DNA from: Geotoga petraea
Lineage (GTDB): Bacteria; Thermotogota; Thermotogae; Petrotogales; Petrotogaceae
Direction of reading: 5' to 3'
NCBI RefSeq assembly: GCF_900102615.1
Contig: NZ_FMYV01000001.1
Location: 248,913-312,912 of the forward strand
Length of the DNA stretch: 64,000 nucleotides
The notes beneath the pieces are model-generated. The model ran no database searches. It saw only the letters and a list, made by a program, of their open reading frames with translations, and was not told the DNA's origin. The position numbers were made by a program, and so were the translations under genes. How positions within the stretch are numbered: position 1 is the stretch's first letter; each line of letters starts with the position of its first letter. This document shows positions 34,204 through 62,828 of the stretch, piece after piece.

Positions 34204-34219
34204 ATGAACCATACTTCAT
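34204..34219 (+). promoter_or_regulatory. ATGAA-N6-TTCAT operator-like site, asparaginase promoter
   Basis: The 16-bp inverted repeat ATGAA-CCATAC-TTCAT ends 2 bases before the -10 hexamer, so it covers the -35/-10 spacer and overlaps the TGn of the extended -10. A protein bound here would block RNA polymerase. The same arms and spacing recur at 47759, 54795 and (one mismatch) 62653. Confidence 0.6.
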
Positions 34220-34227
34220 GATATAAT
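34219..34227 (+). promoter_or_regulatory. Extended -10 promoter of the asparaginase gene
   Basis: TGATATAAT: a TGn element followed by the exact TATAAT at 34222-34227, 33 bases before the start codon. The -35 region is not convincing. Confidence 0.7.
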
Positions 34228-34259
34228 TTACTTGAAAATATTATACAGGAGGAATGTTA

Positions 34260-35234
34260 ATGAAAAAAATTGCAGTTATAACTACTGGTGGAACAATTGC
34301 CATGACTTCAGATCCTATTTTAGGAGTTATTCCATCAGATAAAGTCAATAGAAAACTAAATGAAATTCCAGAGATAGATGATATTGCCGAAACAAATTTA
34401 ATAGAATTTTCAAATATACCAAGTCCACATATGACTCCGAAGAAAATGTTTGAGTTATCAAAACTTGTTAAAAAAATTATAGATTCAGATGAATATGATG
34501 GAGTTGTAATAACACATGGTACGGATACTCTTGAAGAAACATCTTATTTTTTAGATTTGTTAATAGATAACAAAAAACCAGTTGTTATGACGGCTGCCAT
34601 GAGAGATTGGAATGAACCTAATACAGATGGGCCAAGGAATCTAATAGCTTCAATTAGGGTTGCAACAAAACCTGCTTCAATTGAAGAGGGCGTTTTGGTG
34701 TGCCTTAATGATGAAATACATGCTGCAAGAGAGGTTACAAAAACTTATACATCAAATGTAGCAACTTTTGATTCCCCTGGTTATGGACCGTTAGGTATTG
34801 TTGATAATGACACTGTTATTTTTTATAGAAGATCTCTACTAAGAATGCAAATAAACACTGAGAAAATAGAAGATAGAGTGGCTCTTATAAAAACGTATAC
34901 CGGAGATGAGGGAGAGATAATAAAAGAGTTACCAAAATTAGGTTACAAGGGTATTGTTATAGAAGCTTTTGGCAGGGGCAATGTTCCAGAAGGGGTTGCA
35001 GATGCGCTGCAAGAAGTAATAGAAAAAGGAATACCAGTCGTGTTGGTGTCAAGGTGTTATAAAGGAAGGGTTTTAGGGGTTTACGGATATAAGGGTGGTG
35101 GAGCAGATTTAAAATCAAGGGGTGTCATATTAGGCCAGGAGATTTCTGGACCTAAGGCGAGAGTTAAAATGATGGTAGTTTTAGGGAAAACTAATAATAG
35201 AAATATCATCAGATCATATTTTGAATCGAAATGA
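34260..35234 (+). CDS. ansA: L-asparaginase
   Basis: This 324-residue enzyme converts asparagine to aspartate and ammonia. The two active-site motifs are TTGGTIAM (residues 9-16) and VVITHGTDTLEET, and GPRNLIASIRVA follows. No signal peptide is present, so it acts in the cytoplasm. AGGAGG at 34247-34252 is 7 bases from ATG 34260, which is preferred over ATG 34254. The promoter carries an inverted repeat shared with other amino-acid genes in this window. Confidence 0.93.
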   Translation: MKKIAVITTGGTIAMTSDPILGVIPSDKVNRKLNEIPEIDDIAETNLIEFSNIPSPHMTPKKMFELSKLVKKIIDSDEYDGVVITHGTDTLEETSYFLDLLIDNKKPVVMTAAMRDWNEPNTDGPRNLIASIRVATKPASIEEGVLVCLNDEIHAAREVTKTYTSNVATFDSPGYGPLGIVDNDTVIFYRRSLLRMQINTEKIEDRVALIKTYTGDEGEIIKELPKLGYKGIVIEAFGRGNVPEGVADALQEVIEKGIPVVLVSRCYKGRVLGVYGYKGGGADLKSRGVILGQEISGPKARVKMMVVLGKTNNRNIIRSYFESK

Positions 35235-35252
35235 AGGAGATGATTCCAAATC

Positions 35253-36641
35253 ATTAAAAAAATAGGATTAGTCTCTTTGATATTATTTATTTTTGTAAAT
35301 CTTTTTTCAATGAATTTGGAAGAGATCTATACTTTATCGTATAGAAAAGAGACCTTAAATCAGAGTTGGGCTGAATTGCTCAATTATATAGAGAAAAATG
35401 AATATACAGAAAAAGTAATTGAATATGGAGAAATAATTTCTGCAAAAAAAGAGCTTTTAAATAATTTTAAAAATTCAAATTTTATAGATCATATATTATC
35501 AGAAGATCTATCAAAGTTCTTATCTTCTCTTTCTGTTTTAAGTGAAAATCTTTCGATAAATGAGGAAAATACAGAAAATATATTAATAATTTTTCCCTAT
35601 CTAATACGAGATTTGAACGAAATATTTATTAAGGGATATATAGAGGAAGATTATTATAAATCTCTGTATAGATTAAAAGGACTAAAAGAAAAGTTAAATG
35701 TTCCTAATTTTGAGGCTTTTTTAAATAATATGGTTAAAGAGGTAATGAAAAATTCAGTCTATTTGGATCAAGAAATGAAAAATTTTGTAAAAGAATTTAT
35801 TCCAAACAATATATTGGCAAATATTAACGAGATTATAGCAGAAAATAAATTTTATTTATCTGAAGAAAACTTTGTAAGTGCTTATAGACTTTTAAATTTT
35901 TTAAACGATAATAATGTCATCAGTTCAGAGAATTTAACGGTCTTGAAGAAACTTGAATCTTATTTTAGCTTGAAATCCAGGTTGACTGACATGAATAATA
36001 GAGTTTATTTTTTAGAAAAATCCGAAATGAATACTTTTATAAAGGACATATATCAAACAGGTATAAAATTGTCTGAAATGAGTTTAGAGAATAGTCTTTT
36101 AAAAGACTTGTATTTATCTTCTATAAAAACTATGAACAATAGAATGAATACTGTAAATGAAAATATTATAAGTGATATAGATTTTAATAAACTAATGGGG
36201 ATTTTTGGTAAAGACATCGAAAATGAATTGATTAAGTTGAGTAGCAACTTGGAATTAACCGAACAATCAACCGATATAAGAAATGTAGAAATTACAGAAG
36301 AGTCTACTGATCCTGTATTGCTTGAAACTGTGCAAGAAGTAGAAAGCAAAACTAATAATTTTATGGTATATGTGTACTTTGCGATAATTGTAGCTTTTGT
36401 ATTATTTGTTGTTTTGATTTTTGAACTTTTTCCAACCATAAAAAAAGTTGATTTTTTATGTAAGATAGGATTTGGTAGATATGCGTTAAGAATTTCGGAA
36501 AAACTTGTTATGAAAGAACCAAACAATTATAAGAGTTATATGGCAATGGCAAAATCTTTTGAAGCTATAGGGGAATATAATTCATCTATATCTTCTTATA
36601 AAAAAGCCATGAAATTAAAAGAAAAGGGTGAAATAGATTGA
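35253..36641 (+). CDS. Hypothetical membrane protein with TPR-like tail, probable ATT start
   Basis: This protein of about 460 residues is not recognised. It has an N-terminal signal-like stretch, a long acidic helical region, one membrane span near the last quarter (FMVYVYFAIIVAFVLFVVLI) and a C-terminal cytoplasmic TPR-like part (EPNNYKSYMAMAKSFEAIGE). The first conventional start is TTG at 35277, which has no SD and would cut the basic part of the signal. AAGGAG at 35234-35239 instead points to ATC 35250 or ATT 35253, giving IKKIGLVSLILFIFVNLFS. It follows ansA by 18 bases. Confidence 0.7.
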   Translation: MKKIGLVSLILFIFVNLFSMNLEEIYTLSYRKETLNQSWAELLNYIEKNEYTEKVIEYGEIISAKKELLNNFKNSNFIDHILSEDLSKFLSSLSVLSENLSINEENTENILIIFPYLIRDLNEIFIKGYIEEDYYKSLYRLKGLKEKLNVPNFEAFLNNMVKEVMKNSVYLDQEMKNFVKEFIPNNILANINEIIAENKFYLSEENFVSAYRLLNFLNDNNVISSENLTVLKKLESYFSLKSRLTDMNNRVYFLEKSEMNTFIKDIYQTGIKLSEMSLENSLLKDLYLSSIKTMNNRMNTVNENIISDIDFNKLMGIFGKDIENELIKLSSNLELTEQSTDIRNVEITEESTDPVLLETVQEVESKTNNFMVYVYFAIIVAFVLFVVLIFELFPTIKKVDFLCKIGFGRYALRISEKLVMKEPNNYKSYMAMAKSFEAIGEYNSSISSYKKAMKLKEKGEID

Positions 36642-37282
36642 TAATTATATCGTCTTCTCAAAGTGATGTGTACATAATTTATAAAGGTAATAAAAGTATT
36701 ATTAAAAAGATAAGTGGGAGAAGTTCTGGATCTAAAATAGTTTCAGCAGTACAAGAAATATTGGTATTAAATAATAAAACTTTAGGCCAAATAAAAGAAT
36801 TTGGAATAGATGTTGGTCCAGGATCTTTCACGGGTATAAGAATAAGTATAGCAGTAATTCAAGGATTTTTATTTGGTAGAAATGATTATGAATTGAAAAA
36901 ATTTTATTCTTCTGATGTTTTGGGTTATGGTTTTTTAAATAAAAAAATAGCTGTGTTGAATAAGGCAAGGGATGATGCAGCATATGTATCTTTATATAAT
37001 TATGGTGTTAGAGTTTCAATGCCAGAAATGATATTTGGTAAAAATTTAGACGGTATTTTACAAGATAGAACTTTGATAGGTGCGCAATCAAAACATTTTA
37101 AAGATAAATATTTACTGAAAAATGAAATTTTAATTCCAGAAATATCTATTGATAATTTTATTTACGCTTTTAAAGTTGGTGAAAAAATAAATGCGGAAGA
37201 TTTAGAACCACTTTATATACAAAAACCAATTGCTGTTGAAAATTATGAAAAACAAAATAATAAGAAAATTGAAGACATATAA
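36638..37282 (+). CDS. tsaB: tRNA threonylcarbamoyladenosine biosynthesis protein TsaB
   Basis: This 214-residue protein is the partner of TsaD in making t6A37 on tRNAs that read ANN codons. The signature DVGPGSFTGIRISIAVIQGF is complete; the ASKH N-terminal fold starts at residue 1 and the C-terminal half is diverged. The start is TTG at 36638, overlapping the previous stop. It ends at a hairpin shared with the convergent gene. Confidence 0.9.
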   Translation: MIIISSSQSDVYIIYKGNKSIIKKISGRSSGSKIVSAVQEILVLNNKTLGQIKEFGIDVGPGSFTGIRISIAVIQGFLFGRNDYELKKFYSSDVLGYGFLNKKIAVLNKARDDAAYVSLYNYGVRVSMPEMIFGKNLDGILQDRTLIGAQSKHFKDKYLLKNEILIPEISIDNFIYAFKVGEKINAEDLEPLYIQKPIAVENYEKQNNKKIEDI

Positions 37283-37283
37283 A

Positions 37284-37318
37284 AAATAAGCTCAAAATCG
37301 AAAGATTTGAGCTTATTT
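37284..37318. terminator. Bidirectional terminator after tsaB
   Basis: AAATAAGCTCAAAATC (37284-37299) pairs with GATTTGAGCTTATTT (37304-37318) around GAAA with one bulged A. The T-tails are interrupted in both directions. The stop codon of the convergent gene (37313-37315) lies in the stem. Confidence 0.75.
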
Positions 37319-37846
37319 AATTTTAATATATTTATCCAACAATAAATGCACATAAAAACCAGATATTAAAGATAAGCTGTAAAAAATTCTTATTTCTATT
37401 TTAAACTTAGTGTTAAGTAAAAAAAGTATTATCCCTATTATTATTCCTGTATGTATTTTATGCCAGGCTCCTCTGTGACGAGTTAGAGAGTTAAAAACAA
37501 TACCAAAGGCATATCCTAAAATAATACCTAAATAGATAATAATTATATTATATATCAAAAAATCGTCTATGTTTGTTATATGTCTTAGTAAGTATTCGTA
37601 TTCAAACAAATAATAAACAGAAAAAATAACAATCAGTATTCTAAAAATTTTGTTTATAATAGATAAATCGTGATCAACATCTGGCAAATCCGTTCCTATA
37701 ACAAATAATAAAAATGAAAATATCAACTCGTTGTTATTGAATAAGGGATAATGATCGAATAATAAAGTAAAAACTATAGAAAAAACTAAATAATAAACTG
37801 GAAATAACAATATTCCAGATGTTATATGATGTTTGAAATTTGGCAT
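37313..37846 (-). CDS. Membrane-bound metal-dependent hydrolase-like protein (DUF457/YdjM-like)
   Basis: This 177-residue protein has about five hydrophobic spans and conserved polar clusters DLPDVDHDLS, LTRHRGAWHKIH and YVHLLLDK, as in DUF457/YdjM putative membrane hydrolases. The His and Asp residues are presumed metal ligands. ATG 37846, after AAAGGGGATTAT, is preferred over an upstream in-frame ATG at 37885. It lies downstream of rex beyond a terminator. The substrate is unknown. Confidence 0.75.
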   Translation of the reverse strand: MPNFKHHITSGILLFPVYYLVFSIVFTLLFDHYPLFNNNELIFSFLLFVIGTDLPDVDHDLSIINKIFRILIVIFSVYYLFEYEYLLRHITNIDDFLIYNIIIIYLGIILGYAFGIVFNSLTRHRGAWHKIHTGIIIGIILFLLNTKFKIEIRIFYSLSLISGFYVHLLLDKYIKIK

Positions 37847-37872
37847 ATAATCCCCTTTCTCATAAGCTATAT

Positions 37873-37900
37873 AAAAAGGGAGCATTTAAGCCCCCTTTAT
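37873..37900 (-). terminator. Terminator after rex
   Basis: On the minus strand AAAGGGGGC pairs with GCTCCCTTT (one mismatch) around TTAAAT and is followed by a T-run, CCCTTTTTATAT. It closes the leuS-rex unit and leaves little room for a promoter of the next gene. Confidence 0.75.
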
Positions 37901-37906
37901 TAAATG

Positions 37907-38548
37907 TTATAAATCATTTTTAGAAGATGCAATTTCAAAAGTCAAAGATTTTAAAGAAATCACGAAATCAACATCTTCTACCTCTATGTCTTCTGGAGCG
38001 TATATAGAGGTAGGTGTGAAATTTAAAATACCCTTAATACCACAATTTATGAGCTTATCTGTAACTTCTTGAGCAGCGTTCACTGGAACTGTAAGAATAG
38101 CTATTTCAATATTGTTATTTTTTATTCTTTCTTCAATATCGTCTATTTTTTGTATTGTTACACCAGGAACTATCATTTGACCTACTTTTTTTTCATCAAC
38201 GTCAAAAGCAGATACTATTTTAAATCCATTTTTTTCAAGGCCTGCATAATTTGCTATAGCAGAACCAAGGTTACCTGCTCCAACAATTGCCACGTTCCAA
38301 TTCTTTTTCAGCCCTAAAATTTCTTTTAGTTTAAAAGAAAGTTTATCAACATTGTAACCTACACCACGTTTACCAAACTCTCCAAAGTAAGATAGATCTT
38401 TCCTTACTTGAGAAGCTTTGATTCCAAGAAGATCTGCCATTTCTTTAGAAGATGTTTTATCTACGCCGTTGTCTTTTAACTTAGTTAAACATCTATAATA
38501 AATAGCTAGTCTTCTTATTGTTGGTTTAGGAATTTTTGGAGTTCTCAC
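37907..38548 (-). CDS. rex: Redox-sensing transcriptional repressor Rex
   Basis: This 213-residue repressor binds DNA when the NADH/NAD ratio is low. A winged helix (KIPKPTIRRLAIYYRCLTKL, ADLLGIKASQVRKDLSYFGE) is followed by a Rossmann domain (VAIVGAGNLGSAIANY) and the C-terminal swap helix. The GTG start at 38548 follows GAGGGGTGATTTT at the leuS stop. The leuS-rex pairing suggests a shared transcript from the leuS promoter. No convincing full Rex operator was found in this window. Confidence 0.94.
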   Translation of the reverse strand: MRTPKIPKPTIRRLAIYYRCLTKLKDNGVDKTSSKEMADLLGIKASQVRKDLSYFGEFGKRGVGYNVDKLSFKLKEILGLKKNWNVAIVGAGNLGSAIANYAGLEKNGFKIVSAFDVDEKKVGQMIVPGVTIQKIDDIEERIKNNNIEIAILTVPVNAAQEVTDKLINCGIKGILNFTPTSIYAPEDIEVEDVDFVISLKSLTFEIASSKNDL

Positions 38549-38552
38549 AAAA

Positions 38553-41036: not shown

Positions 41037-41070
41037 TTTAATACCTCCACTATGTTATTTTATATTGTTA

Positions 41071-41098: not shown

Positions 41099-41110
41099 AA
41101 GAATTAATCA

Positions 41111-41719
41111 TCAATTGCCAGTTACTGTAGGTATGTAAAGATTTAGGTCTTCTGATAAATTATCAATTGCAATATCTGGATGTTTTAAGATTCTGGATTG
41201 TCCGGTTTCTTTTATCAAGAAAAAAACTCTTGAAGGATCTCCTGCTTTAAAAGATCCATTATAAGGTACTTTGAAAGTATAACTTGTTTCAATTTCAGGT
41301 TCTTTAAAAAAGAAGAATTTGTTTTCATTTAAACCAGGGCTTATGTTTCCCTGGAATATATAGTGATTGCTATCTCTAAAAGAAACCCAAACATCTTCAT
41401 GTCCAGTTATATATAATTGAATATAACCGCTATCATTACTACCCTGAAAATAAGTTAAAATTCTATCCAAATCTTCCATTTGGTTTTTAAGAAACTTATT
41501 AGAAACTATATACTTTTCAACTAAACCGTTGGGTTGAAAGTATGTATTCATCTTTTCTAACTCTTTTTCAAGCGAATTTACCCTTTCGTTTAGCTCAGCA
41601 CTAAGCCGATTTATCTGGCTTTCTGTATTTTTTTTGAATATTGTCATTCTTATTTCGGTTCCAAGTGCCAAAAGCAAGGCAATTATACTGATAATAATCA
41701 ATATTATTTTTAACTTCAA
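41111..41719 (-). CDS. Hypothetical membrane-anchored coiled-coil protein
   Basis: This 202-residue protein is not recognised. One N-terminal membrane span (LKIILIIISIIALLLALGTE) is followed by a coiled coil (about residues 32-60, INRLSAELNERVNSLEKELE) and a beta-rich domain of about 110 residues outside. It looks like a type II anchored envelope protein. The start is TTG at 41719 after AGGAGGTG, overlapping the stop of the sigma factor gene, so the two are coupled. Confidence 0.72.
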   Translation of the reverse strand: MKLKIILIIISIIALLLALGTEIRMTIFKKNTESQINRLSAELNERVNSLEKELEKMNTYFQPNGLVEKYIVSNKFLKNQMEDLDRILTYFQGSNDSGYIQLYITGHEDVWVSFRDSNHYIFQGNISPGLNENKFFFFKEPEIETSYTFKVPYNGSFKAGDPSRVFFLIKETGQSRILKHPDIAIDNLSEDLNLYIPTVTGN

Positions 41720-42348
41720 ATTGCACCTCCTGTAAACATACGAATTTTTTCATATAACTCTTGTTTGTCATTGACAATTCTTTTTATTTTTTGTATAGTG
41801 TTATCCACTTTTTTTCTTTTTATGTTCAATTTTTTTGATATTTCTTTGTAAGTATAGTTTTCAAACCACAAATCTATTATTTCTTTTTCATCGTTGTTCA
41901 AATCTTTAACACATTGTTTTATGAAATAATCGTTTAAAATATCAGGTTCAGTTGATTCTGGAGCTTCGATATAGTATTCAGAATTTTCATTGAAGTCTTC
42001 AAAAGTATTTTCTATATTCATAGCTTCGGTCAAAACCTTGTTTTTTTGTCTATTTAAATAGGTTAAAAAAGATTTTATTTCACTTGAAATATTTAGGTAA
42101 GCAAAAGTTGAAAATTTACTTCCAGAATTCTCTTTATAGTTATAAACTGCTTGCATTAGCCCTACATAACCAATTTGCATAAAATCTTCAAAATCAGCCC
42201 AAGCTCCATAGTATTTTGATACAACAGATTTAACCATGGGCTCAAATTTTTCTAAAATCATTCCCATGGCTTCCATGTCTCCAACCTTTGATAATTTTAC
42301 CAACCTGTTAACATTTAATCTTCGCATAATATAATAATTTCTATTCAT
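41716..42348 (-). CDS. Sigma-70 family RNA polymerase sigma factor (SigH-like)
   Basis: This 210-residue alternative sigma factor has region 2 (FEDFMQIGYVGLMQAVYNYK, FSTFAYLNISSEIKSFL) and region 4 (LNNDEKEIIDLWFENYTYKE, ISKKLNIKRKKVDNTIQKIK); regions 1.1 and 3 are reduced. It resembles the SigH/SigF-sized group rather than ECF factors. No good SD precedes either in-frame ATG (42348 or 42327), unlike nearly all its neighbours. It is coupled to a membrane-anchored protein, not an obvious anti-sigma factor. Confidence 0.85.
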   Translation of the reverse strand: MNRNYYIMRRLNVNRLVKLSKVGDMEAMGMILEKFEPMVKSVVSKYYGAWADFEDFMQIGYVGLMQAVYNYKENSGSKFSTFAYLNISSEIKSFLTYLNRQKNKVLTEAMNIENTFEDFNENSEYYIEAPESTEPDILNDYFIKQCVKDLNNDEKEIIDLWFENYTYKEISKKLNIKRKKVDNTIQKIKRIVNDKQELYEKIRMFTGGAI

Positions 42349-42436: not shown

Positions 42437-42439
42437 GAA

Positions 42440-47711: not shown

Positions 47712-47758
47712 AGTTTATTTAAACTTTATAAAAAGTATATTATGAGTTATGATTATTA

Positions 47759-47774
47759 TGAAAAAAATTTCATG
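47759..47774 (+). promoter_or_regulatory. ATGAA-N6-TTCAT operator-like site, aminotransferase leader
   Basis: Inverted repeat ATGAA-AAAAAT-TTCAT between the predicted promoter and the SD (GAGGTG) of the aminotransferase gene. It has the same arms and spacing as the sites at 34204 and 54795. Confidence 0.6.
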
Positions 47775-47791: not shown

Positions 47792-48988
47792 ATGAGATAT
47801 TCTGAGAGAGTCTTAAACATGCAGGAATCACCTATAAGAAAATTAATTCCCTTTGCTGAAGAAGCCAAGAAAAAAGGGAAAAAAGTATACCATTTAAATA
47901 TTGGCCAACCTGACCTTGAAACACCAAAAGAGTTTTTTGAAGGCATAAATAATGCCCCAAAAGTTGTAGCTTATTCTCATTCTGCTGGGATTATAGAGTT
48001 GAGAAATGCATTTTCTGAGTACTACAGAAAATGGAATATGAATTTGGATCCAGAAGAATTAATAATCACAACAGGTGGTTCTGAAGCGATAATATTTGCT
48101 TTGGCATCTGTTGCAGATCCAAATGATGAAATAGTAGTAATTGAACCATTTTATGCAAACTACAGGGGCTTTGCCGAAATGCTTAATTTAAAGTTAGTTC
48201 CTGTTCAAGCTTCACCTGACAATGGATATGCTTTGCCTTCAAAAGAAGAATTTGAAAAAGTAATTACAGATAGAACAAAAGCCATTATATACTCAAACCC
48301 TTCCAATCCAACTGGAGCTGTATATACAGAAGAAGAGATTAAAAGAATAGATCAAATTGCTGTTGAAAATGATTTATATATAATATCAGATGAAGTCTAT
48401 AAAGAATTTACATTTGATGGAAGAAAACATATTTCAATTATGAACTTTGAAAACAAAGATAGGTACATTGTTGTAGATAGTATTTCTAAGCGATATTCTG
48501 CGTGTGGAGCCAGAATAGGAGTGTTTGCAACTAAAAATAAAGAATTATTAGCTCAAGCTATGAAATTTGCTCAATCAAGGTTATGTTCTCCTGTTATGGC
48601 ACAGTACGGAACTGTTTCATTGTTGAAAAATTTGGACGATTCTTATTTTGAAGAGATGATAGAAGAATATCAAAAGAGAAGAGATGCTGTTTACGAAGAA
48701 TTATCTAAAATTGATGGAGTAACTTTCAAGAAGCCACAAGGATCTTTTTATGTGTCCGCAGAAATTCCCGTTGATGATAGCGAAGAATTTATAAAATGGA
48801 TGCTTACTGACTTTGATTTAGATAATGAAACTGTTATGGTTGCACCTTTAAATGGTTTTTATGCAACAAAAACAGCAGGTAAGAAAGAAATAAGAATTGC
48901 TTATGTTCTTGAACCAGAATCGTTAAAAAAAGCATGTCAAATATTGAGAAAAGGCATAGAAGAATACAATAATATCAAGACAAGATAA
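47792..48988 (+). CDS. Class I/II PLP-dependent aminotransferase
   Basis: This 398-residue aspartate/aromatic aminotransferase-like enzyme has VYHLNIGQPDLETP, the NPSNPTGAVYTEEE motif, SDEVYKEF and the PLP-binding lysine in VVDSISKRYSACGARIG. It moves amino groups between amino acids and keto acids in the cytoplasm; the substrate range is not readable from sequence. GAGGTG is the SD. It forms a single-gene unit closed by a terminator, and its leader carries the shared inverted repeat. Confidence 0.92.
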   Translation: MRYSERVLNMQESPIRKLIPFAEEAKKKGKKVYHLNIGQPDLETPKEFFEGINNAPKVVAYSHSAGIIELRNAFSEYYRKWNMNLDPEELIITTGGSEAIIFALASVADPNDEIVVIEPFYANYRGFAEMLNLKLVPVQASPDNGYALPSKEEFEKVITDRTKAIIYSNPSNPTGAVYTEEEIKRIDQIAVENDLYIISDEVYKEFTFDGRKHISIMNFENKDRYIVVDSISKRYSACGARIGVFATKNKELLAQAMKFAQSRLCSPVMAQYGTVSLLKNLDDSYFEEMIEEYQKRRDAVYEELSKIDGVTFKKPQGSFYVSAEIPVDDSEEFIKWMLTDFDLDNETVMVAPLNGFYATKTAGKKEIRIAYVLEPESLKKACQILRKGIEEYNNIKTR

Positions 48989-54634: not shown

Positions 54635-54640
54635 AAAGAA

Positions 54641-54670
54641 AAAGTCACTTGATTATCAAGTGACTTTTTT
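54641..54670. terminator. Bidirectional terminator between the chemoreceptor and tRNA-Val
   Basis: AAAGTCACTTGA (54641-54652) pairs with TCAAGTGACTTT (54656-54667) around TTA, with T6 on plus. On the minus strand it starts right after the CCA of tRNA-Val and is followed by T5, so it ends both transcripts. Confidence 0.9.
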
Positions 54671-54744
54671 GGTGGGTCTAGTAGGGATTGAACCTACGAC
54701 CTATTCCACGTCAAGGAAGCGCTCTCCCGCTGAGCTATAGACCC
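54670..54744 (-). tRNA. tRNA-Val (anticodon GAC)
   Basis: This 75-base tRNA, with CCA encoded, has acceptor GGGTCTA/TAGACCC fully paired, anticodon loop TTGACGT and T arm GTAGG-TTCAATC-CCTAC. The anticodon stem CTTCC/GGAAT has an unpaired C27-U43 at its outer end. It is convergent with the chemoreceptor gene. Confidence 0.93.
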
Positions 54745-54754
54745 AATATAAAAA

Positions 54755-54783
54755 AGTATATCATAAAGAAACTTATTCGTCAA
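54755..54783 (-). promoter_or_regulatory. Promoter of tRNA-Val
   Basis: On the minus strand TTGACG (54783-54778), a 17-base spacer and TATACT (54760-54755) preceded by TGA (extended -10). It ends 10 bases before the tRNA 5' end. Confidence 0.85.
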
Positions 54784-54794
54784 TATTTATAAAT

Positions 54795-54810
54795 ATGAAA
54801 AATATTTCAT
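54795..54810 (+). promoter_or_regulatory. ATGAA-N6-TTCAT operator-like site upstream of the opp operon
   Basis: Inverted repeat ATGAA-AAATAT-TTCAT; the symmetry extends into flanking TTTATAAAT and ATTTATAAA. It lies 233 bases before the binding-protein gene, 51 bases before the first predicted promoter, and 12 bases behind the tRNA-Val -35. Confidence 0.55.
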
Positions 54811-54861
54811 GATTTATAAATCTAATTAACTTTAATTATCTTAAATGTTTAATGGACAAAG

Positions 54862-55042: not shown

Positions 55043-56908
55043 ATGAAGAAGATCTTAGTGGTATTATTTGTTTTATCAGCTTTGGTTTTTTCTTTTGCAG
55101 AAATACCAAATTCTGATACAATTATTAAAAGAGAGATTGGTGAACCAGAAACATTGGATCCAGCATATGCATATGACACAGCTAGTGGAGAAGTTATTTT
55201 TAATATTGCAGATAACTTAATTGCTTATGACGGTGAAGCATTAGACAAATTTGTTCCTATGCTTTCTACAGTAGTTCCTACAGTAGAAAATGGTTATTTA
55301 AGTGAAGATGGTTTAACTTACACTTTTGTTATTAGAGAAGGAGTAAAATTTCATAATGGAAATGATTTAACTCCTGAAGATGTTGAATATTCATTTGAAA
55401 GAAACATGTTAGCATCTCAATTTGGTGGACCTACATGGATGTATCTTGAACCATTAACTGGATATCAATATTTAGAACAATCAGTTCCTGAATTTATTGG
55501 TGTTGGAAAATGGGCAGATCTTTTCAATGAAGATGGCACATTAAAAGAAGAATACAGAGAAGATATGATTGCTTTCTATGAAGAAGTAATTGATCCTGCT
55601 GTAGAAGTAAACGGAAATGAAGTTACATTCAATTTAGCAATTCCTTATGGTCCTTTTTTAAACGTTCTTGCTCATTTTTCAGCATGGTCAGTTATCATTG
55701 ATAAAGAATGGTCAATTGAACAAGGTGCATGGGACGGAAATCCAGACGGATGGTGGAAATGGCATAATTTAAGAACTGAAGATGCAGCATTTTATGACAA
55801 TTTAATGGGTACAGGTCCATACGAATTAGTAGAATGGGACAGAACACAACAACAAGTTATCTTGAAAAGAAACGATAACTACTGGAGAGAACCAGCTCCT
55901 GTTGAAAATGTTGTTCTTAGAACAATAACTGAATGGCCTACTGCTAAAACTGCATTTGAAGCTGGGGATGTTGATATTATGACTCCTGACCAACAGTATA
56001 TGTCTCAATTAAGAGGAAGAGAAGACGAAGGTATTATCACAGTTGAAGGGTTAACAACAATTAGTACGGACGTTATTGGATTTATTTGGGAAATAAATCC
56101 AGATTCTAAATATATTGGCTCAGGAAGATTAGACGGAGAAGGTATTCCTACCAACTTCTTTGCTGATGAAAATGTTAGAAAAGGATTTCAGCATGCTTTT
56201 AGCTACGACGCTTATATAGCAAGTGTATTGGAAGGACAAGCTATTCAACCTGTAAGTGCCTTGCCAAAAGGATTATTAGGTTATAGTGATGACATAGACA
56301 AACCATCATTTGATGCAAATGCTGCTACTAACTATTTTAGAAGAGCATTCAATGGTCAATTATGGAACAGAGGCTTTAAAATGACACTTGTTTATAATTC
56401 CGGTAACGATGCAAGACAAGCTGCTATGGAAATCTTAAGAGATAATTTAGCACAAATAAATCCTAGATTCCAAGTTGAAGTTAGAGGAGTTCAATGGCCA
56501 GATTATGTTGCTTCAAGAAGATCATACACTAACCCAACTAACTTCTTTTCATGGTTAGCAGATTATCCAGATCCACATAACTTTATTTCAACTTATTACA
56601 ATTCAGACAGCGGATACTATGCTGCTTACATGGGAGATTCATATGCAAGATTTGCAAGTTTACCACAACCTGAATTTGGTGGTGTTTCCTTAAACGATTA
56701 CATAATGATGGCGTTAGAAGAATCAAATACACAAAAAAGAGCTATGATGTATGAAAAAATCTCTGAATTTGCTGTAGATCACGCTATAAATTTACCAGTT
56801 GCTCAAGGGTTGGCAAGAAAAGCTTATAGAGATTGGTTAAAAGGTTGGGAAAGAAACCCAATGCAAGGTAGTAGCGATTACTTCTATATTTTATCAAAAG
56901 AAGAATAA
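55043..56908 (+). CDS. Peptide ABC transporter, substrate-binding protein (family 5)
   Basis: This 621-residue extracytoplasmic binding protein has signal peptide MKKILVVLFVLSALVFSFA and a signal peptidase I-type site before EIPNSD, with no lipobox cysteine. SBP_bac_5 features are GEPETLDPAYAYDT, YTFVIREGVKFHNGNDLTPE then DVEYSFER, GTGPYELVEWDRTQQQVIL and NDNYWRE. It binds peptides, or possibly sugars as some Thermotogota members do; peptides fit the surrounding genes. It is first in the operon with AAGGGGGG as SD. Confidence 0.92.
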   Translation: MKKILVVLFVLSALVFSFAEIPNSDTIIKREIGEPETLDPAYAYDTASGEVIFNIADNLIAYDGEALDKFVPMLSTVVPTVENGYLSEDGLTYTFVIREGVKFHNGNDLTPEDVEYSFERNMLASQFGGPTWMYLEPLTGYQYLEQSVPEFIGVGKWADLFNEDGTLKEEYREDMIAFYEEVIDPAVEVNGNEVTFNLAIPYGPFLNVLAHFSAWSVIIDKEWSIEQGAWDGNPDGWWKWHNLRTEDAAFYDNLMGTGPYELVEWDRTQQQVILKRNDNYWREPAPVENVVLRTITEWPTAKTAFEAGDVDIMTPDQQYMSQLRGREDEGIITVEGLTTISTDVIGFIWEINPDSKYIGSGRLDGEGIPTNFFADENVRKGFQHAFSYDAYIASVLEGQAIQPVSALPKGLLGYSDDIDKPSFDANAATNYFRRAFNGQLWNRGFKMTLVYNSGNDARQAAMEILRDNLAQINPRFQVEVRGVQWPDYVASRRSYTNPTNFFSWLADYPDPHNFISTYYNSDSGYYAAYMGDSYARFASLPQPEFGGVSLNDYIMMALEESNTQKRAMMYEKISEFAVDHAINLPVAQGLARKAYRDWLKGWERNPMQGSSDYFYILSKEE

Positions 56909-56944
56909 TATCATTAAACTAAAATTATTTAAAAACTAAATATC

Positions 56945-56983
56945 AGAGGGGGGACGCTTAGAAGCGTCTACCCTCTTATTTTT
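56945..56983 (+). terminator. Attenuating hairpin between binding-protein and permease genes
   Basis: AGAGGG (56945-56950) with CCCTCT (56971-56976) and GACGCTT (56953-56959) with AAGCGTC (56962-56968) form a 13-bp two-part stem with a GG/TA internal loop, followed by TATTTTTA. The permease SD follows at once. It likely gives less permease than binding protein by partial termination or 3'-end protection. Confidence 0.75.
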
Positions 56984-57001
56984 ATGTGGAGGTGAACTTT
57001 T

Positions 57002-58039
57002 TTGACTGCCTACATAATAAGAAGACTATTGTTATTACCTTTGATAATTTTTGGGGTAACATTAATAGTTTTCAGCATGATGCAATTATTAGGTACAGAT
57101 AAACTGGTTACAGCTTATATACCTCAGTCTCAAATTGATAGAATGACTGATGAACAGATTGAAAGTGTAAAAGAAAGATATGGGTTAAATGATCCTTTGC
57201 CTCTAAGGTATATTAATTGGCTAGGAAAAACTTTATCTGGTGACTTAGGTTGGTCTATTGTTGGTAAACAACCAACTTTAACAGCTATTTTACAAAGGGT
57301 TCCTTATACAATTGAATTGGCATTATATGCAATCGTGCCCATTATATTTGTTGGTATTTGGCTAGGAATAAAATCTGCAGTAAACCATAATTCTTTTATA
57401 GACAATTTCATAAGGATTTTTGCTTTAGTTGGTTATTCCTTACCAGATTTTGTTTTTGGATTAATAATTTTAATGATTTTTTATGGAGTTTTAGGGTGGT
57501 TTCCACCGGGTAATTTATCTTTATGGGCTGATCAAGCAGTTTCATCAGATTCTTTCAATACAATAACTCATTTAATATCTATTGATGCACTTTTAAATGG
57601 TAGATTCGATATATTTTGGGATGCATTAAGGCATATTATCGCTCCTGTTATAACTCTTGCATATTTATGGTGGGCATTCTTATTAAGAATTACCAGATCA
57701 GCCATGCTTGAAGTCATGAAAAAAGATTACATTAGAACAGCAAGGGCAAAAGGATTATCTGAAAAAGTTGTAATCAATAAACATGCAAGAAGAAATGCAT
57801 TAATTCCGGTTACAACGGTTGCTGGTTCCATGATTATTGGACTGTTCATAGGTACAGTTTTTGTCGAAACCATATTTAACAGAACAGGTTTAGGAAGATT
57901 TGTTGCTGATGCTGCAACCCAGTTAGATTATTCGTCAATAATGGGAAGTCTTCTTTTTTATTCAATGATTCTTGTAATTGGAAATCTTATAATTGATATT
58001 TTATATGCAGTTATAGATCCAAGAATTAGACTTGAGTGA
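57002..58039 (+). CDS. Peptide ABC transporter permease, OppB/DppB type
   Basis: This 345-residue inner-membrane subunit has six spans. It starts MTAYIIRRLLLLPLIIFGVT, and the EAA loop (YIRTARAKGLSEKVVINKHA, then RRNALIPV) contacts the ATPase. The TTG start at 57002 follows GGAGGTGAAC. It is coupled to the other permease 11 bases downstream. Confidence 0.94.
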   Translation: MTAYIIRRLLLLPLIIFGVTLIVFSMMQLLGTDKLVTAYIPQSQIDRMTDEQIESVKERYGLNDPLPLRYINWLGKTLSGDLGWSIVGKQPTLTAILQRVPYTIELALYAIVPIIFVGIWLGIKSAVNHNSFIDNFIRIFALVGYSLPDFVFGLIILMIFYGVLGWFPPGNLSLWADQAVSSDSFNTITHLISIDALLNGRFDIFWDALRHIIAPVITLAYLWWAFLLRITRSAMLEVMKKDYIRTARAKGLSEKVVINKHARRNALIPVTTVAGSMIIGLFIGTVFVETIFNRTGLGRFVADAATQLDYSSIMGSLLFYSMILVIGNLIIDILYAVIDPRIRLE

Positions 58040-58050
58040 GGTGAATATTT

Positions 58051-59382
58051 GTGAATAAAGAAGAGCTCAAAAGAACGCTGAAAAAATTATTTGGAAATAC
58101 TGGGGCTATAATAGGGTTCATTTTATTAGGATTCTTTATAGTTATTGCAATTATTGCTCCTTATATTGCTCCACCAGATATTCCTCAAGATATGGACCTT
58201 GAACAAGCAAATAAACTTATAGAAGATTACGAACCTTCTAATAAAGAAGAGATATTATCAGCTTTCGAAAGTTTTCAACAGTTTAATTTAGGATTTTATA
58301 TGCAAGATTATCCTATAGTTAAAGAAGTTTATGAATCTTTAAAAGAATTTGACAAAGGAAATATTTCGTTAGAGGAAGCTAAGATGAGTTTACAAAAATT
58401 GACAAACTATTATATTGTAGACATATCTTTATTAGAGCAAATAGAAACTGATCCTAATGCAGTTATTTCTGATGTTGAAAAAGTTTATAAAAAATATAAG
58501 GATTATAATGAAAAGGGAAAAGTAGTAAAAGAAGAATTAGAAGAACTAAGGACTTTAGAAGGCGATGATTTTTTAAAAAAAGCAAAATCAATGTATAATG
58601 ATTTTCATGATTTTTATATTGATAGTATAGATTTCGATCCTTTTATCATGCCAAAAGAATCCTTAGAAAATGCCCCTCAACCACCTTCAAGAGAATATCC
58701 TTTTGGTTTATCAAATGGAAGAAATATTTATTATGGCGTAGTATGGGGTACGAGAACTGCTTTTCAAATTGGTTTTTCAGTAGTTGCTTTTGCAACGTTT
58801 GTTGGCCTTTTAGTAGGATCAATAGCTGCGTACTTTGGTGGTTGGGTTGACGAAATATTGATGAGAATAACTGATATATTTCTAAGTATTCCTTTTATTT
58901 TGTCTGCTATGGTATTGACAACGGTATTAGGAACAGGAATAGATAAAGTCATGATAGCTATGATGACTTTTACCTGGATGTCTACAGCAAGACTTATAAG
59001 GGGAAATATTCTTCAAGCCAAAAATGAACAATATGTACTTGCTGCTCGAGCCTTAGGAGTCCCTGATTGGAAAATTATCATAGTTCATATATTACCTAAT
59101 ACTATTTTCCCAGTTATTATTCAAGCTACTATGAGAATAGGTACAATGGTTATTACTGCTTCTGGATTGAGCTTTTTAGGTTTAGGTGCTCCACAGGGCT
59201 ATGCTGATTGGGGTTCTATTTTATCGTTTGCCAGAAACTGGATGCTTGGTGGAGGAGAAAATGCTTTTCAATATTGGTACACTATAGTATTCCCAGGTAC
59301 TGCAATGGTTCTATTCGTTTTAGGGTGGAATTTAGTTGGCGATGCACTAAGAGATATATTTGACCCTAAAAATAGAATGTGA
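58051..59382 (+). CDS. Peptide ABC transporter permease, OppC/DppC type, with a 150-residue insertion
   Basis: This second permease has 443 residues, against about 280-340 usually. The first span is at 16-38. Residues about 46-200 form a charged, helical extra segment (EQANKLIEDYEPSNKEEILS; KEELEELRTLEGDDFLKKAK) that replaces the short periplasmic linker. The usual FGTDxxGRD motif appears as YPFGLSNGRNIYYGVVWGTR (216-235). EAA loop AARALGVPDWKIIIVHILPN is at 331-350. The GTG start follows GAGGTGA. Confidence 0.92.
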   Translation: MNKEELKRTLKKLFGNTGAIIGFILLGFFIVIAIIAPYIAPPDIPQDMDLEQANKLIEDYEPSNKEEILSAFESFQQFNLGFYMQDYPIVKEVYESLKEFDKGNISLEEAKMSLQKLTNYYIVDISLLEQIETDPNAVISDVEKVYKKYKDYNEKGKVVKEELEELRTLEGDDFLKKAKSMYNDFHDFYIDSIDFDPFIMPKESLENAPQPPSREYPFGLSNGRNIYYGVVWGTRTAFQIGFSVVAFATFVGLLVGSIAAYFGGWVDEILMRITDIFLSIPFILSAMVLTTVLGTGIDKVMIAMMTFTWMSTARLIRGNILQAKNEQYVLAARALGVPDWKIIIVHILPNTIFPVIIQATMRIGTMVITASGLSFLGLGAPQGYADWGSILSFARNWMLGGGENAFQYWYTIVFPGTAMVLFVLGWNLVGDALRDIFDPKNRM

Positions 59383-59393
59383 GGTGGAAATAA

Positions 59394-60425
59394 TTGAATA
59401 CAAAAAATAAAAAAGCAGAACCTTTGTTAAAAATAGAAAATTTAAAAACATATTTTAGAACTGAAGATGGAATTGTAAAAGCTGTCAATGGGATGGATTT
59501 TGAACTATATCCTGGTGAAACTTTGGCAATTGTTGGGGAATCAGGTTCAGGTAAATCTGTTACTTCATTAAGCCTTATGCACCTTTTAGACGAAAATGGT
59601 TTTATACCAGAAGGGAAAATTATATATAAGGGCCAAGATATTACCAAACTTTCTCAAAATAAGATGAGGAAAGTTAGGGGTAATGAAATATCTATGATAT
59701 TCCAAGAGCCTATGACAGCTTTGAATCCTGTTTATACTATTGGCGAACAAATAATGGAAATGATCAAACTTCACTTAAAAATGAATGAAAAAGAAGCTAG
59801 AGCTAGAGCAGTTGATTTACTTCAAAAAGTTGGAATTCCAGAACCAGCAAAAAGAATAGAACAATACCCTCATGAATTATCTGGTGGAATGAGACAAAGG
59901 GCTATGATTGCAATGGCTTTATCTTGTGATCCTTCGGTACTAATAGCTGACGAACCTACAACAGCGCTCGATGTAACCATTCAAGCACAAATTTTAGAAT
60001 TAATGAATAAATTACAAGATGATTATGGTATGGCAATAATATTTATTACTCATGATTTAGGAGTAGTTGCAGAAATGTCAGATAGAGCTATTGTAATGTA
60101 TGGTGGAGAAATATTTGAAAAGGGAGATATAGTAGATATTTTCAAAAAGCCAAGAAATCCTTATACATGGGGACTCATGAATTCAATTCCAAGAATAGAT
60201 GTTGAAAAAGAAAAATTATGGGCAATTCCCGGATCCGTTCCAAGCGCTATGAACTTTCCAAAGGGGTGTAAATTTGCTAATAGATGTTTTTTAGCTACTG
60301 AAAAATGTGAGAATGACGAACCAGAATTAAAAGAAGTTGGGAAAAATCATTTATCAAGATGTTTCTATGTTGACAAATTAGTAGAAGAAATTGATAAAGT
60401 AAAGGCCGGTGAATCAAATGGATAA
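59394..60425 (+). CDS. Peptide ABC transporter ATP-binding protein, OppD/DppD type
   Basis: This 343-residue cytoplasmic ATPase has Walker A GESGSGKS, Q-loop MIFQEPMTALNP, signature LSGGMRQRAMIAMAL, Walker B VLIADEPTTALD and the C-terminal oligopeptide-transporter domain with cysteines (CKFANRCFLATEKC) that can hold an iron-sulfur cluster in some homologues. The start is TTG at 59394 after GAGGTGG. It overlaps oppF by 8 bases. Confidence 0.94.
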   Translation: MNTKNKKAEPLLKIENLKTYFRTEDGIVKAVNGMDFELYPGETLAIVGESGSGKSVTSLSLMHLLDENGFIPEGKIIYKGQDITKLSQNKMRKVRGNEISMIFQEPMTALNPVYTIGEQIMEMIKLHLKMNEKEARARAVDLLQKVGIPEPAKRIEQYPHELSGGMRQRAMIAMALSCDPSVLIADEPTTALDVTIQAQILELMNKLQDDYGMAIIFITHDLGVVAEMSDRAIVMYGGEIFEKGDIVDIFKKPRNPYTWGLMNSIPRIDVEKEKLWAIPGSVPSAMNFPKGCKFANRCFLATEKCENDEPELKEVGKNHLSRCFYVDKLVEEIDKVKAGESNG

Positions 60426-61593
60426 AAAAACGCCATTACTTGAAGTAGAAAATATGAAAAAATATTTCCCTGTTAGAGCAGGTGTTTTTAAAAGAGTAGT
60501 GAACCAAGTTCAAGCTGTTGATGACATTTCTTTTAAAGTGAATTATGGTGAAACACTTGGTTTGGTTGGAGAATCTGGTTGTGGTAAAAGTACAACTGGC
60601 TTGTCAATTCTTAGGCTAATTAATCCAACAGCAGGAAGAATTATGATAGAAGGAGTGGATTCCACTCCCTGGTATATGAACGGAAGAGAAGCAAAGAAGT
60701 ATATAAAAGAAACATATGAAAATAAATTTGAACAAATGTTGTTGGAATTTAAAACTGAGGATGAGGTAATTAAGAATTTAGAAAAAGAAATAGATAAAAA
60801 AATGGCAAAAATATATTTTGAGCACGGATATTCTGGTTTAAAAAAGGAATTATTAACCGATTTAAAAGAAAAAAGAAAATTTTTTAGAAAAGATGCTCAA
60901 ATAATATTCCAAGATCCTTATTCTTCTCTTAACCCAAGGATGAGAATAAAAAACATAATAGGTGAAGGAATAAAAACGCATAATATAGCAAAAGGAAAAG
61001 AAGTAAATGATATCGTTGCGGACTTACTTGAAAAGGTTGGACTTTCTTCTGAATACTTGTATAGATATCCACATCAATTTTCAGGAGGTCAAAGACAAAG
61101 AGTTGGGATTGCCAGAGCATTAGCATTAAATCCTAAAATGATTGTTTCCGACGAAGCTGTTTCTGCACTTGATGTTTCGGTACAATCACAGGTTATAAAT
61201 TTGATGGATGATCTAAGGGATCAATTTAATTTAACTTATATATTTATAGCCCATGATTTGGCTGTTGTAAAACATATAAGTGATAGAATAGCTGTTATGT
61301 ATTTGGGTAAAATTGTTGAAATAACGGGGAAAAAGAAATTATTTGAAAATCCGTTACATCCTTATACAGTATCATTAATGTCGGCTATTCCTGTTCCGGA
61401 TCCAGAAAACAAATCAAAAAGAATTATTTTGCAGGGTGACGTTCCAAGCCCATTAAACCCACCAACTGGTTGTAGGTTTCATACAAGGTGTCCTATTGCA
61501 AAAGAAATTTGTTCTAAAGAAGAACCACCATTAAAAGAATTAGAAGATGGGCATCATGTAGCTTGTCACTTCGCTGGTGATTTCAAAGGTTAA
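60418..61593 (+). CDS. Peptide ABC transporter ATP-binding protein, OppF/DppF type, with insertion
   Basis: This 391-residue second ATPase has Walker A GESGCGKST (51-59), Q-loop IIFQDPYSSLNP (162-173), signature FSGGQRQRVGIARAL (221-235) and Walker B MIVSDEAVSALD (241-252). Walker A to Q-loop is about 60 residues longer than in usual OppF because of a helical insertion near 85-155 (GREAKKYIKETYENKFEQML; LKKELLTDLKEKRKFFRKDA). ATG 60418 is preferred over GTG 60409. A C-terminal cysteine motif (CRFHTRCPIAKEIC) is present. It is last in the operon. Confidence 0.93.
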   Translation: MDKKTPLLEVENMKKYFPVRAGVFKRVVNQVQAVDDISFKVNYGETLGLVGESGCGKSTTGLSILRLINPTAGRIMIEGVDSTPWYMNGREAKKYIKETYENKFEQMLLEFKTEDEVIKNLEKEIDKKMAKIYFEHGYSGLKKELLTDLKEKRKFFRKDAQIIFQDPYSSLNPRMRIKNIIGEGIKTHNIAKGKEVNDIVADLLEKVGLSSEYLYRYPHQFSGGQRQRVGIARALALNPKMIVSDEAVSALDVSVQSQVINLMDDLRDQFNLTYIFIAHDLAVVKHISDRIAVMYLGKIVEITGKKKLFENPLHPYTVSLMSAIPVPDPENKSKRIILQGDVPSPLNPPTGCRFHTRCPIAKEICSKEEPPLKELEDGHHVACHFAGDFKG

Positions 61594-61601
61594 TTATTTA
61601 T

Positions 61602-61630
61602 AAAAAGTCGGCTGAAAAGCCGACTTTTTT
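61602..61630 (+). terminator. Terminator of the opp operon
   Basis: AGTCGGCT (61606-61613) pairs with AGCCGACT (61618-61625) around GAAA, extended by A/T pairs and followed by five more T residues. Confidence 0.92.
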
Positions 61631-61638
61631 GTTATAAT
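61630..61638 (+). promoter_or_regulatory. Extended -10 promoter of the ECF sigma factor gene
   Basis: TGTTATAAT: TGn plus exact TATAAT (61633-61638), starting in the T-tract of the opp terminator. The start codon is at 61656, so the leader would be only about 10 bases, with the SD near the very 5' end. Confidence 0.55.
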
Positions 61639-61655
61639 TGATTAGGAGGGAAACA

Positions 61656-62183
61656 ATGCCAGAAGAAAATAAAGATTCAGGTCTATATAAAAAAATATAC
61701 AACGAAAACTATAAATACGTTAGAAATATTCTTAGAAAATCCATAAATAATAACGATTTAGAAGATGCAACACAGGAAGTATTCTTAAGAATATTTAAAG
61801 GTTTGGATAATTTTAAGGGTAATTCAAAAATACAAACTTGGATTTATAAAATAACAGAAAATGTAGCTATTGATTTTAAAAAGAAATATGTAAAAGAAAA
61901 TAAACAAAATAAAAAAATAGCTCAACATAAAATTTATAAATCATACAATTTTACAAAACATATCTTTGATAAAATGAACTATGATCAGCTACTAAAATAT
62001 ATTGATAAACTTAGTCCAAACGATAGAATAATATTAAAGTTACGAGAGATAAATAATTATGATTATAAAAAAATATCTAAATTATTAAACATTCCAATTG
62101 GAACCGTAAAAAGTAGGATTTTTTATTCCAGAAAAAAAATAAAGAAAATGATAGAGAGTGATAATGGGGGTGAAGAATTATGA
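61656..62183 (+). CDS. ECF sigma factor (RpoE/SigW type)
   Basis: This 175-residue protein has region 2 (DLEDATQEVFLRIFKGLDNF, NSKIQTWIYKITENVAIDFK) and region 4 (LSPNDRIILKLREINNYDYK, KISKLLNIPIGTVKSRIFYS). AGGAGGG at 61643-61649 selects ATG 61656. It overlaps the following rseC-like gene. It likely responds to envelope stress given that partner; no RseA-type anti-sigma gene is adjacent. Confidence 0.9.
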   Translation: MPEENKDSGLYKKIYNENYKYVRNILRKSINNNDLEDATQEVFLRIFKGLDNFKGNSKIQTWIYKITENVAIDFKKKYVKENKQNKKIAQHKIYKSYNFTKHIFDKMNYDQLLKYIDKLSPNDRIILKLREINNYDYKKISKLLNIPIGTVKSRIFYSRKKIKKMIESDNGGEEL

Positions 62184-62608
62184 GAGAATTAATGACTGTA
62201 AAAAAAATGGATAATAAATATGTATATTTAAAAACTAATAGAGCTTCAGAATGTTCAACTTGTTCTATTAGCGGAGCTTGTAGTTTAACAGGTACTCCCG
62301 ATATTGAGTTAAAAGCTATGAGAGAAGAGTCATACATACCAGGTGAAAAAGTATTAGTTGAACTACCACAAGTCCCATTGGCAAAGATAGCTATGTTGGT
62401 TTATGGTTTTCCATTATTAGTTTTCTTAGCTTTGGCTATTTTAAGTTATGGAATTGGATTAAACGATCTTTTTTCTTTTTCTATCGCTATAGGTGGTATG
62501 GCTGTTAGTTATTTTATACTATCTATTTTAGACAAAAAGAAGTTTAAAGATATGTACTTGCCTAAAATAATTAAAAAAGTAAAAAACGAAATAAAAATAA
62601 ACGATTAG
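62180..62608 (+). CDS. rseC: RseC/MucC family membrane protein (SoxR-reducing system-like)
   Basis: This 142-residue protein has the N-terminal cysteine cluster CSTCSISGACS of RseC/MucC and two membrane spans (ALAILSYGI region and FSIAIGGMAVSYFILSILD). RseC modulates sigma-E activity in E. coli and relates to the Rsx/Rnf system. It overlaps the sigma gene by 4 bases and ends at a terminator. Confidence 0.85.
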   Translation: MRELMTVKKMDNKYVYLKTNRASECSTCSISGACSLTGTPDIELKAMREESYIPGEKVLVELPQVPLAKIAMLVYGFPLLVFLALAILSYGIGLNDLFSFSIAIGGMAVSYFILSILDKKKFKDMYLPKIIKKVKNEIKIND

Positions 62609-62640
62609 AAGAAGCTGTTTTCATAGCTTCTTCTTTTTTT
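62607..62640 (+). terminator. Terminator after the ECF sigma-rseC unit
   Basis: AGAAGAAGCT (62607-62616) pairs with AGCTTCTTCT (62625-62634) around GTTTTCAT, followed by T6 (62635-62640). Confidence 0.9.
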
Positions 62641-62652
62641 GAAAAATTTTTC

Positions 62653-62668
62653 GTGAAATATTTTTCAT
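62653..62668 (+). promoter_or_regulatory. ATGAA-N6-TTCAT-like site upstream of gdhA
   Basis: GTGAA-ATATTT-TTCAT matches the repeat of the asparaginase, aminotransferase and opp promoters in 9 of 10 arm positions and in spacing. A weaker copy, ATGAA-AAAATA-TTCCC (62785-62800, 8 of 10), lies at the predicted start point of gdhA. Confidence 0.5.
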
Positions 62669-62701
62669 AGTAATGGGGAATATAAATATAAATCAGTTTA
62701 A

Positions 62702-62776
62702 TTAACTCTAATTCATTATAAATGATATACATTAAATTTAATCGAACTTTATTTTTTATATAAAAAGTTCTAAAAT
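62702..62776 (+). promoter_or_regulatory. Two candidate promoters of gdhA
   Basis: P1: TTAACT (62702-62707), 18 bases, TATACA (62726-62731) preceded by TGA. P2: TTTATT (62748-62753), 17 bases, TAAAAT (62771-62776). Neither is a strong match. The rest of the 220-base gap before gdhA holds only the inverted repeats described. Confidence 0.45.
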
Positions 62777-62828
62777 AAAGGTGTATGAAAAAATATTCCC
62801 CAACCATTATTAAGGGAGGTTATTGAGT

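Follow-up and report, generated by a model that had tools for sequence, protein, structure and literature searches.

Several described regulators have operators that resemble in part the element treated here, a palindrome that recurs before amino-acid and peptide genes in a 64,000-nucleotide stretch of the Geotoga petraea genome (contig NZ_FMYV01000001.1, positions 248,913 to 312,912, or G000:C1:248913-312912 in our numbering; hereafter the window) and that is accompanied at many promoters by an array of 10-bp repeats. The box of the feast/famine regulators has the form TGAAA-WWW-TTTCA, a string that was not found in the open-licence literature; ARG boxes lie about 21 bp apart; and MraZ and the OmpR/PhoB-type response regulators use direct repeats with a period of about 10 bp. 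In the available part of the FL11 report, the feast/famine regulators (Lrp/AsnC; FL11) resemble the present system in their global control of amino-acid catabolism and in a palindrome with an AT-rich centre, and the lysine-bound octamer of P. horikoshii FL11 covers a long DNA stretch (PMC2995911). BldC binds cooperatively to AT-rich, directional direct repeats whose number varies, with a 9-bp unit (AATT-N4-C) and no palindrome, according to the portion of its report at hand (PMC5859096).

The operator in Geotoga departs from each of these. Relative to Lrp/AsnC boxes its core has four bases rather than three, it is joined by the 10-bp direct-repeat array, and no Lrp ligand domain was detected in its own genome. 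It has the half-site spacing of the ARG box, and arginine and ornithine genes are among its targets, but its inner pair is A/T rather than T/A, its double sites are shifted by 14 bp, and ArgR was found in none of 38 genomes. The array shares directional direct repeats with BldC-type binders but is built of 10-bp units and comes with a palindrome, which the MraZ and OmpR/PhoB-type systems, with their different unit sequence, do not have; these are comparisons of DNA pattern only. Rex of the Thermotogales likewise controls fermentation genes, and its gene lies in the window, but its operator geometry differs. As we discuss below, the palindrome almost certainly marks a regulon of amino-acid and peptide catabolism. 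The best reading, to which we give a probability of about 0.58, is that it serves a global repressor of amino-acid fermentation, which would nucleate on the palindrome and then spread over the array.

The earlier note on the window reported three perfect copies of an ATGAA-N6-TTCAT repeat and estimated that well under one would occur by chance. The three copies are present, at 34204, 47758 (not 47759, as given there) and 54795, and dinucleotide shuffles of the window bear out the estimate, with 0.38 exact copies expected and three copies reached in 1 of 100 shuffles. When one mismatch is permitted the window holds 15 matches against 10.9 expected, so that on count alone only the perfect matches are informative. 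The whole genome (2.17 Mb) contains 19 copies of the pattern and 6 of its reversal, and sorting the 19 by their inner letters parts signal from noise: all ten that read ATGAAA-N4-TTTCAT are intergenic, and the other nine comprise six copies within genes, two before metal genes and the asparaginase site of the window. The inner pair of TGAAT-N4-ATTCA occurs at three of the 19, two of them inside genes and one at a cation-efflux-like gene. It is correct that the inner pair differs from the T/A of the ARG box, as had been noted, but the pair is kept, as A/T, where it had been described as not kept. The refined operator consensus is WTGAAA-WWWW-TTTCAW.

Among distinct WTGAAA-N4-TTTCAW sites, a count that omits four window loci, L026-L036, L115-L164, L193, and L194 onward, 75 of 95 are intergenic and 20 intragenic; the core is free of G and C in 64 of the 75 but in 4 of the 20. 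Sequence information ends at the edges of the 16-mer. Neighbour scoring at offsets of 1-45 around 77 sites brings out a double form, since a second copy reaches 8 bits in 14 of 154 cases at offset 14 and in 0-3 at the other offsets. This 14-bp double form is seen at glyA/aminotransferase loci, butyrate kinase, two further aminotransferases and glutamate dehydrogenase, in the last case both in the window (62639-62668) and at the orthologue in genome G031 (L181). Separately, ATGAAC/T-type copies stand before a copper-ATPase-like gene (L009 1501-1516) and a cation-efflux-like gene (L015 1501-1516), both named by reading. These copies may be ArsR-type operators, which have the same geometry.

A site matrix made without the window sites ranks 54795 first in the window, 47758 second, 62653 third and 62639 fourth; no strand is assigned to the palindromes. 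The perfect palindrome at 47758..47773 lies 18 bp before the start of a class I/II aminotransferase gene (47792..48988, +), orthologues of which have an upstream site in two other genomes (L052, L165). The one at 54795..54810 stands 232 bp before the genes of a peptide ABC transporter (opp; 55043..61593, all +), which encode the substrate-binding protein (55043-56908), permeases (57002-58039, 58051-59382) and ATPases (59394-60425, 60409-61593); oppA homologues of other genera likewise carry an upstream site. A possible weak 10-bp array runs from this operator to the promoter (54813..54852, +; lag-10 z 1.1, not significant alone). The opp operator also stands about 50 bp upstream of a divergent tRNA-Val(GAC) gene (window 54670-54810).

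At the glutamate dehydrogenase gene (62829..64000, +, extending past the window end) a one-mismatch copy at 62653 and a weaker one at 62785 had been proposed. The former is present, but the true form is a double site of which one copy had been missed: TTGAAAAATTTTTCGT at 62639..62654 overlaps GTGAAATATTTTTCAT at 62653..62668 with a 14-bp shift. The 62785 copy ranks 34 and is background. Downstream of the double operator lies an array of six 10-bp units, TAAATCAGTT TAATTAACTC TAATTCATTA TAAATGATAT ACATTAAATT TAATCGAACT (62689..62748, +; lag-10 z 2.9), and the G031 orthologue also has an array. A sigma-70-family factor gene (61638-62183, +) followed by an RseC-type gene (to 62608) adjoins glutamate dehydrogenase in the window, and in G031 a sigma-70-family factor is divergent to it (L181 2367-2924, -). 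The asparaginase site (34204..34219) has exact outer arms with C in place of the inner A/T, and its 7.3 bits (rank 11) are reached 11 times in the window against a mean of 13.0 in 60 simulated windows. Neither this site nor 62785 is supported as an operator, both scoring at background level, and the asparaginase gene is thus not supported as a member of the regulon for which it had been put forward. A scan for orthologues of the asparaginase gene brought up a single Clostridium locus and nothing else.

Each of the 21 genomes of the window's own family, taken here to be Petrotogaceae, holds 5-17 perfect ATGAAA-N4-TTTCAT sites, against 0-5 for the reversed control (222 versus 33 in sum); in the 82 genomes from elsewhere in the phylum the range is 0-4 per genome. 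Clustering of downstream proteins indicates that over a dozen groups of targets keep the pairing of site and gene in at least two genera. Among these are an aminotransferase together with butyrate kinase and phosphate butyryltransferase, oppA, oppDF, a livK-like operon, ord with the next genes, methylmalonyl-CoA mutase, a 2Fe-2S plus FAD-type oxidoreductase pair, arginine deiminase, CoA-transferase, a BhcA-like aminotransferase, glyA, gcvT, glutamate dehydrogenase, and threonine dehydrogenase with the gene after it. By our own reading alone, the oxidoreductase pair would act in proline or sarcosine oxidation. With own-genome sites intergenic, enrichment in 21 of 21 family genomes and sites kept at orthologous targets across genera, the amino-acid/peptide catabolism regulon proposed in the earlier note stands; the genome scan found the repeat neither equally frequent inside genes nor lacking conservation at orthologues. 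A chance or structural DNA feature that has no regulator might be suspected in an AT-rich genome (30% G+C) whose window shows no excess of one-mismatch matches, but it is in essence refuted by the family-confined enrichment and the orthologue conservation, and the sharp 16-bp boundaries also speak against it; we regard its probability as negligible.

In the genome of origin, with names taken from HMM matches, perfect sites lie upstream of the genes for arginine deiminase (and a divergent Ldh_2-type gene), for CoA-transferase subunits, for the aminotransferase and the peptide transporter of the window, for urocanate hydratase (hutU; gene cut at the locus end) and for histidine ammonia-lyase (hutH), of gcvT together with the small gene ahead of it, which has a sub-threshold DUF2007 match, and of a gene whose sole match is O-antigen-ligase; two overlapping perfect sites lie between serine hydroxymethyltransferase (glyA) and a divergent aminotransferase. 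One-mismatch sites are trusted only when the variant letter is outermost, because 29 of the 38 read among the matches listed fall inside open reading frames of at least 60 amino acids. Among those matches, outermost-letter variants precede an aminotransferase, a threonine-dehydrogenase-like gene, glutamine synthetase, a class-II aminoacyl-tRNA-synthetase-like gene, 2,4-diaminopentanoate dehydrogenase, a BhcA-like aminotransferase (below the model cut-off), a sodium-pump decarboxylase beta subunit and glutamate dehydrogenase. G031 has a site plus array before fructose-1,6-bisphosphate aldolase/phosphatase. Twelve perfect sites were read in G022. Judged from the N-termini, six or seven of them fit the theme (oppA, oppD-like, livK-like, gcvT with divergent pfkA, BhcA-like and ord), three lie inside genes, and others adjoin ybaB, a gene of DUF1015-like type and one that looks protease-like. 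Two side observations, both with genes named by reading, concern genus g4: a perfect site stands before an off-theme YbaB-like gene in three genomes (L044, L102, L271), and the gcvT-operon site is common to a divergent 6-phosphofructokinase-like gene (L103, L268).

The second component of the operator is an array of 10-bp units with the consensus T-A-A-[TA]-[CT]-G-[CTG]-[CT]-T-N (about TAATYGYCTN), which is in helical phase with the palindrome and in many promoters ends at the -35 element; at L176 five units lead directly into the TTGACT of that element. Lag self-match over intergenic flanks no longer than 75 bp gives lag-10 z values of 3.6 (g1, the own genus), 3.1, 5.8, 3.3 and 8.7 in the five well-sampled genera, and 2.1 and -1.0 in two genera with two regions each. 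The other lags from 7 to 14 range from -2.5 to 2.2, and control intergenic stretches at lag 10 give -0.8, -0.7, -1.1, 0.5, and 2.5 (g6). A scan with the learned unit (four units, score at least 16) found 22 arrays in own-family loci (911 kb, 218 loci, overlaps included) and none in loci of other families (175 kb, 56 loci). A palindrome lies within 110 bp of 18 of the 22, and such zones make up 3.1% of bases. Ten of the 22 derive from loci used in learning the unit; the 12 others include 8 near a palindrome, some of them orthologous to seed loci or to one another, 1 at 121 bp and 3 that have none. Twenty-one are intergenic, and all 21 are oriented toward the next gene. Downstream arrays mostly begin 8-9 bp (mod 10) past the palindrome; upstream arrays vary. 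One strong array in G031 (L233 3930-3979) has no palindrome, abuts a promoter-like TTGCAA/TATAAT and precedes a GntR/UTRA regulator gene.

These features bear on whether one protein or two bind here. A dimeric regulator could occupy the palindrome and a head-to-tail oligomeric one (response-regulator, BldC-like or MraZ-like) the array, the two touching because palindrome and array are in phase. In favour of this, the unit of the array is asymmetric and faces the gene in 21 of 21 intergenic cases, on either side of the palindrome; L233 has an array and no palindrome, and palindromes at hutH and in genus g4, among others, show no array. Against this, arrays adjoin palindromes (18 of 22) and the downstream ones mostly share one register, which suggests one assembly. 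We consider two factors an alternative of clearly less than even probability.

The geometry of the promoters is suggestive of the mode of action. A good promoter is predicted for 78 site-gene pairs; in 13 of them the site lies at -110 to -100 and in 21 at -35 to +20. At unrelated genes the former class keeps a fixed distance from the -35 element, about 66 bp, and these promoters, with sites near -102, have near-consensus -35 and -10 elements. Sites of the latter class fall on the core promoter or just past the start, as at hutH (L018) and ord (L090). Repression accounts most simply for both classes, given the near-consensus elements of the -102 promoters and the blocking positions of the other sites. 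If the factor instead activated the -102 promoters, reaching the polymerase along the array, and repressed only where its site overlaps the core promoter, the constant distance to -35 at unrelated genes (13 of 78 pairs) would be explained, but promoters so near consensus usually need no activator and 21 of 78 pairs lie at -35 to +20; we find this rather unlikely.

The repressor reading can be stated as follows. One dimeric, family-wide global transcription factor would bind WTGAAAWWWWTTTCAW and control amino-acid and peptide fermentation: the routes of arginine, ornithine, histidine, serine/glycine/threonine and glutamate, the acyl-CoA and butyrate-kinase steps, the uptake of peptides and, in a single genome, an enzyme of gluconeogenesis. 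The factor would mainly repress. At some promoters the palindrome, overlying the core promoter or early transcript, would let it block polymerase directly; elsewhere it may nucleate about 66 bp upstream of the -35 element, with protein along the array covering or wrapping the promoter. An amino-acid or energy signal would presumably release the bound protein.

Which protein this might be was approached through known families. The ArgR DNA-binding protein (PF01316) was not found in any of 38 genomes, although control matches were obtained in 9 of 14 reference genomes, including T. maritima, and the ArgR-like option of the earlier note is not borne out. The Lrp/AsnC ligand domain (PF01037) was not found in the G. 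petraea genome, the sole family genome searched for it (control matches in 11 of 14 reference genomes). These results point to another master regulator. A regulator from ArgR, Lrp/AsnC or some other known amino-acid family that has diverged here and reads an altered box would account for the ARG-box-like spacing and the resemblance to feast/famine control, but in view of these two negatives, for both of which the controls matched, we hold it to be improbable.

The window was said to have no regulator gene. A scan of 40 window proteins found genes for Rex (37907-38548, -; match to T. maritima Rex, E 1.8e-65) and for sigma-70-family factors (41716-42348 and the one at 61638-62183). Rex might read the palindrome and so couple NADH to fermentation, the more so as several targets are NAD-linked dehydrogenases. 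Its DNA-contact region (recognition helix and wing), however, is nearly identical to the one in T. maritima Rex, with a single aligned residue changed. The operator of the latter has its contacted G 6.5 bp from the dyad in the part of the report available (PMC8836258), and WTGAAAWWWWTTTCAW has a G at 5.5 bp, which makes Rex a very improbable reader.

Other families were set aside on several grounds. A MarR group (L138/L143/L145/L149/L152) was the only one seen in all five genera among the MarR loci read (7 of 10 matches in G000, 2 of 7 in G020, 3 of 8 in G021, 5 of 10 in G031 and 4 of 5 in G035), but it is phylum-wide, with matches of about 40-50% identity in motif-free families and some match in 97 of 103 genomes. 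RpiR (PF01418), tried because of the GGAA-N6-TTCC motif of IolR, is missing from 2 of 21 motif-bearing genomes, G036 (80% complete) and G037 (94% complete). GntR (YtrA-like) and ArsR regulators are present in 38 of 38 genomes among the matches listed; the few loci read adjoin ABC-transporter, metal or arsenic-type genes and include no family-wide orphan. For LacI, the string TGAAAN4TTTCA has reportedly appeared in connection with a PtxR/PtxS paper; LacI sites have a central CG that is absent from these cores. IclR was set aside ahead of any genome search, its palindromes being odd-length by the numbering in the accessible part of the source (PMC8222616). The published Petrotoga motif ATTATA-N18-GTCAA, as given in the part of the paper available, reads as an ordinary promoter reversed and was rejected as a counterpart (PMC5217627).

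Several points weigh against a nucleating and extending repressor, and within that reading it is the repression and spreading steps that carry the doubt. No regulator protein for the operator was found in the ArgR, Lrp/AsnC, Rex, MarR, RpiR, GntR and ArsR searches. The loci were fetched using the pattern itself, so that arm invariance is partly ascertainment. Outside the family, perfect sites are slightly above the reversed control, and some targets are off theme (ybaB, DUF1015-like, O-antigen-ligase-like). The promoter scorer is crude, with the best of many positions chosen, and the site-gene pairs are not independent; the -102 sites with near-consensus promoters could equally serve an activator. 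Simulated own-family sequence yields 4, 2 and 2 arrays at the loose four-unit threshold, and none at a stricter five-unit one. At a much lower threshold there is no sense preference (16 sense and 14 antisense in the own genome, 17 versus 11 in g6). The units are clear in genera g2, g3 and g6, and the own-genome version is weak. In genus g4 the learned unit found no arrays; a related unit, TACTCAYGCA, was seen there by eye at arginine deiminase (L101) and, on the opposite side of the site, at ord (L100, L113).

The motif and regulon were not found in the open-licence literature, a search that RegPrecise itself falls outside; RegPrecise includes a Thermotogales set, according to the part of its description at hand (PMC3840689). 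We propose, tentatively and at clearly less than even odds, that the factor is a previously undescribed global feast/famine regulator, neither ArgR nor Lrp, which nucleates at the palindrome and oligomerizes on phased 10-bp repeats to the -35 element, the composite operator being specific to the family. The operators are exact enough for a pull-down, and the regulator could therefore be identified in one experiment. The phased combination of palindrome and array is an unusual promoter architecture that makes nucleate-and-extend regulation directly testable. For the family itself, the finding provides a defined switch for amino-acid breakdown in bacteria that yielded no ArgR in 38 genomes and, in the G. 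petraea genome, no Lrp.

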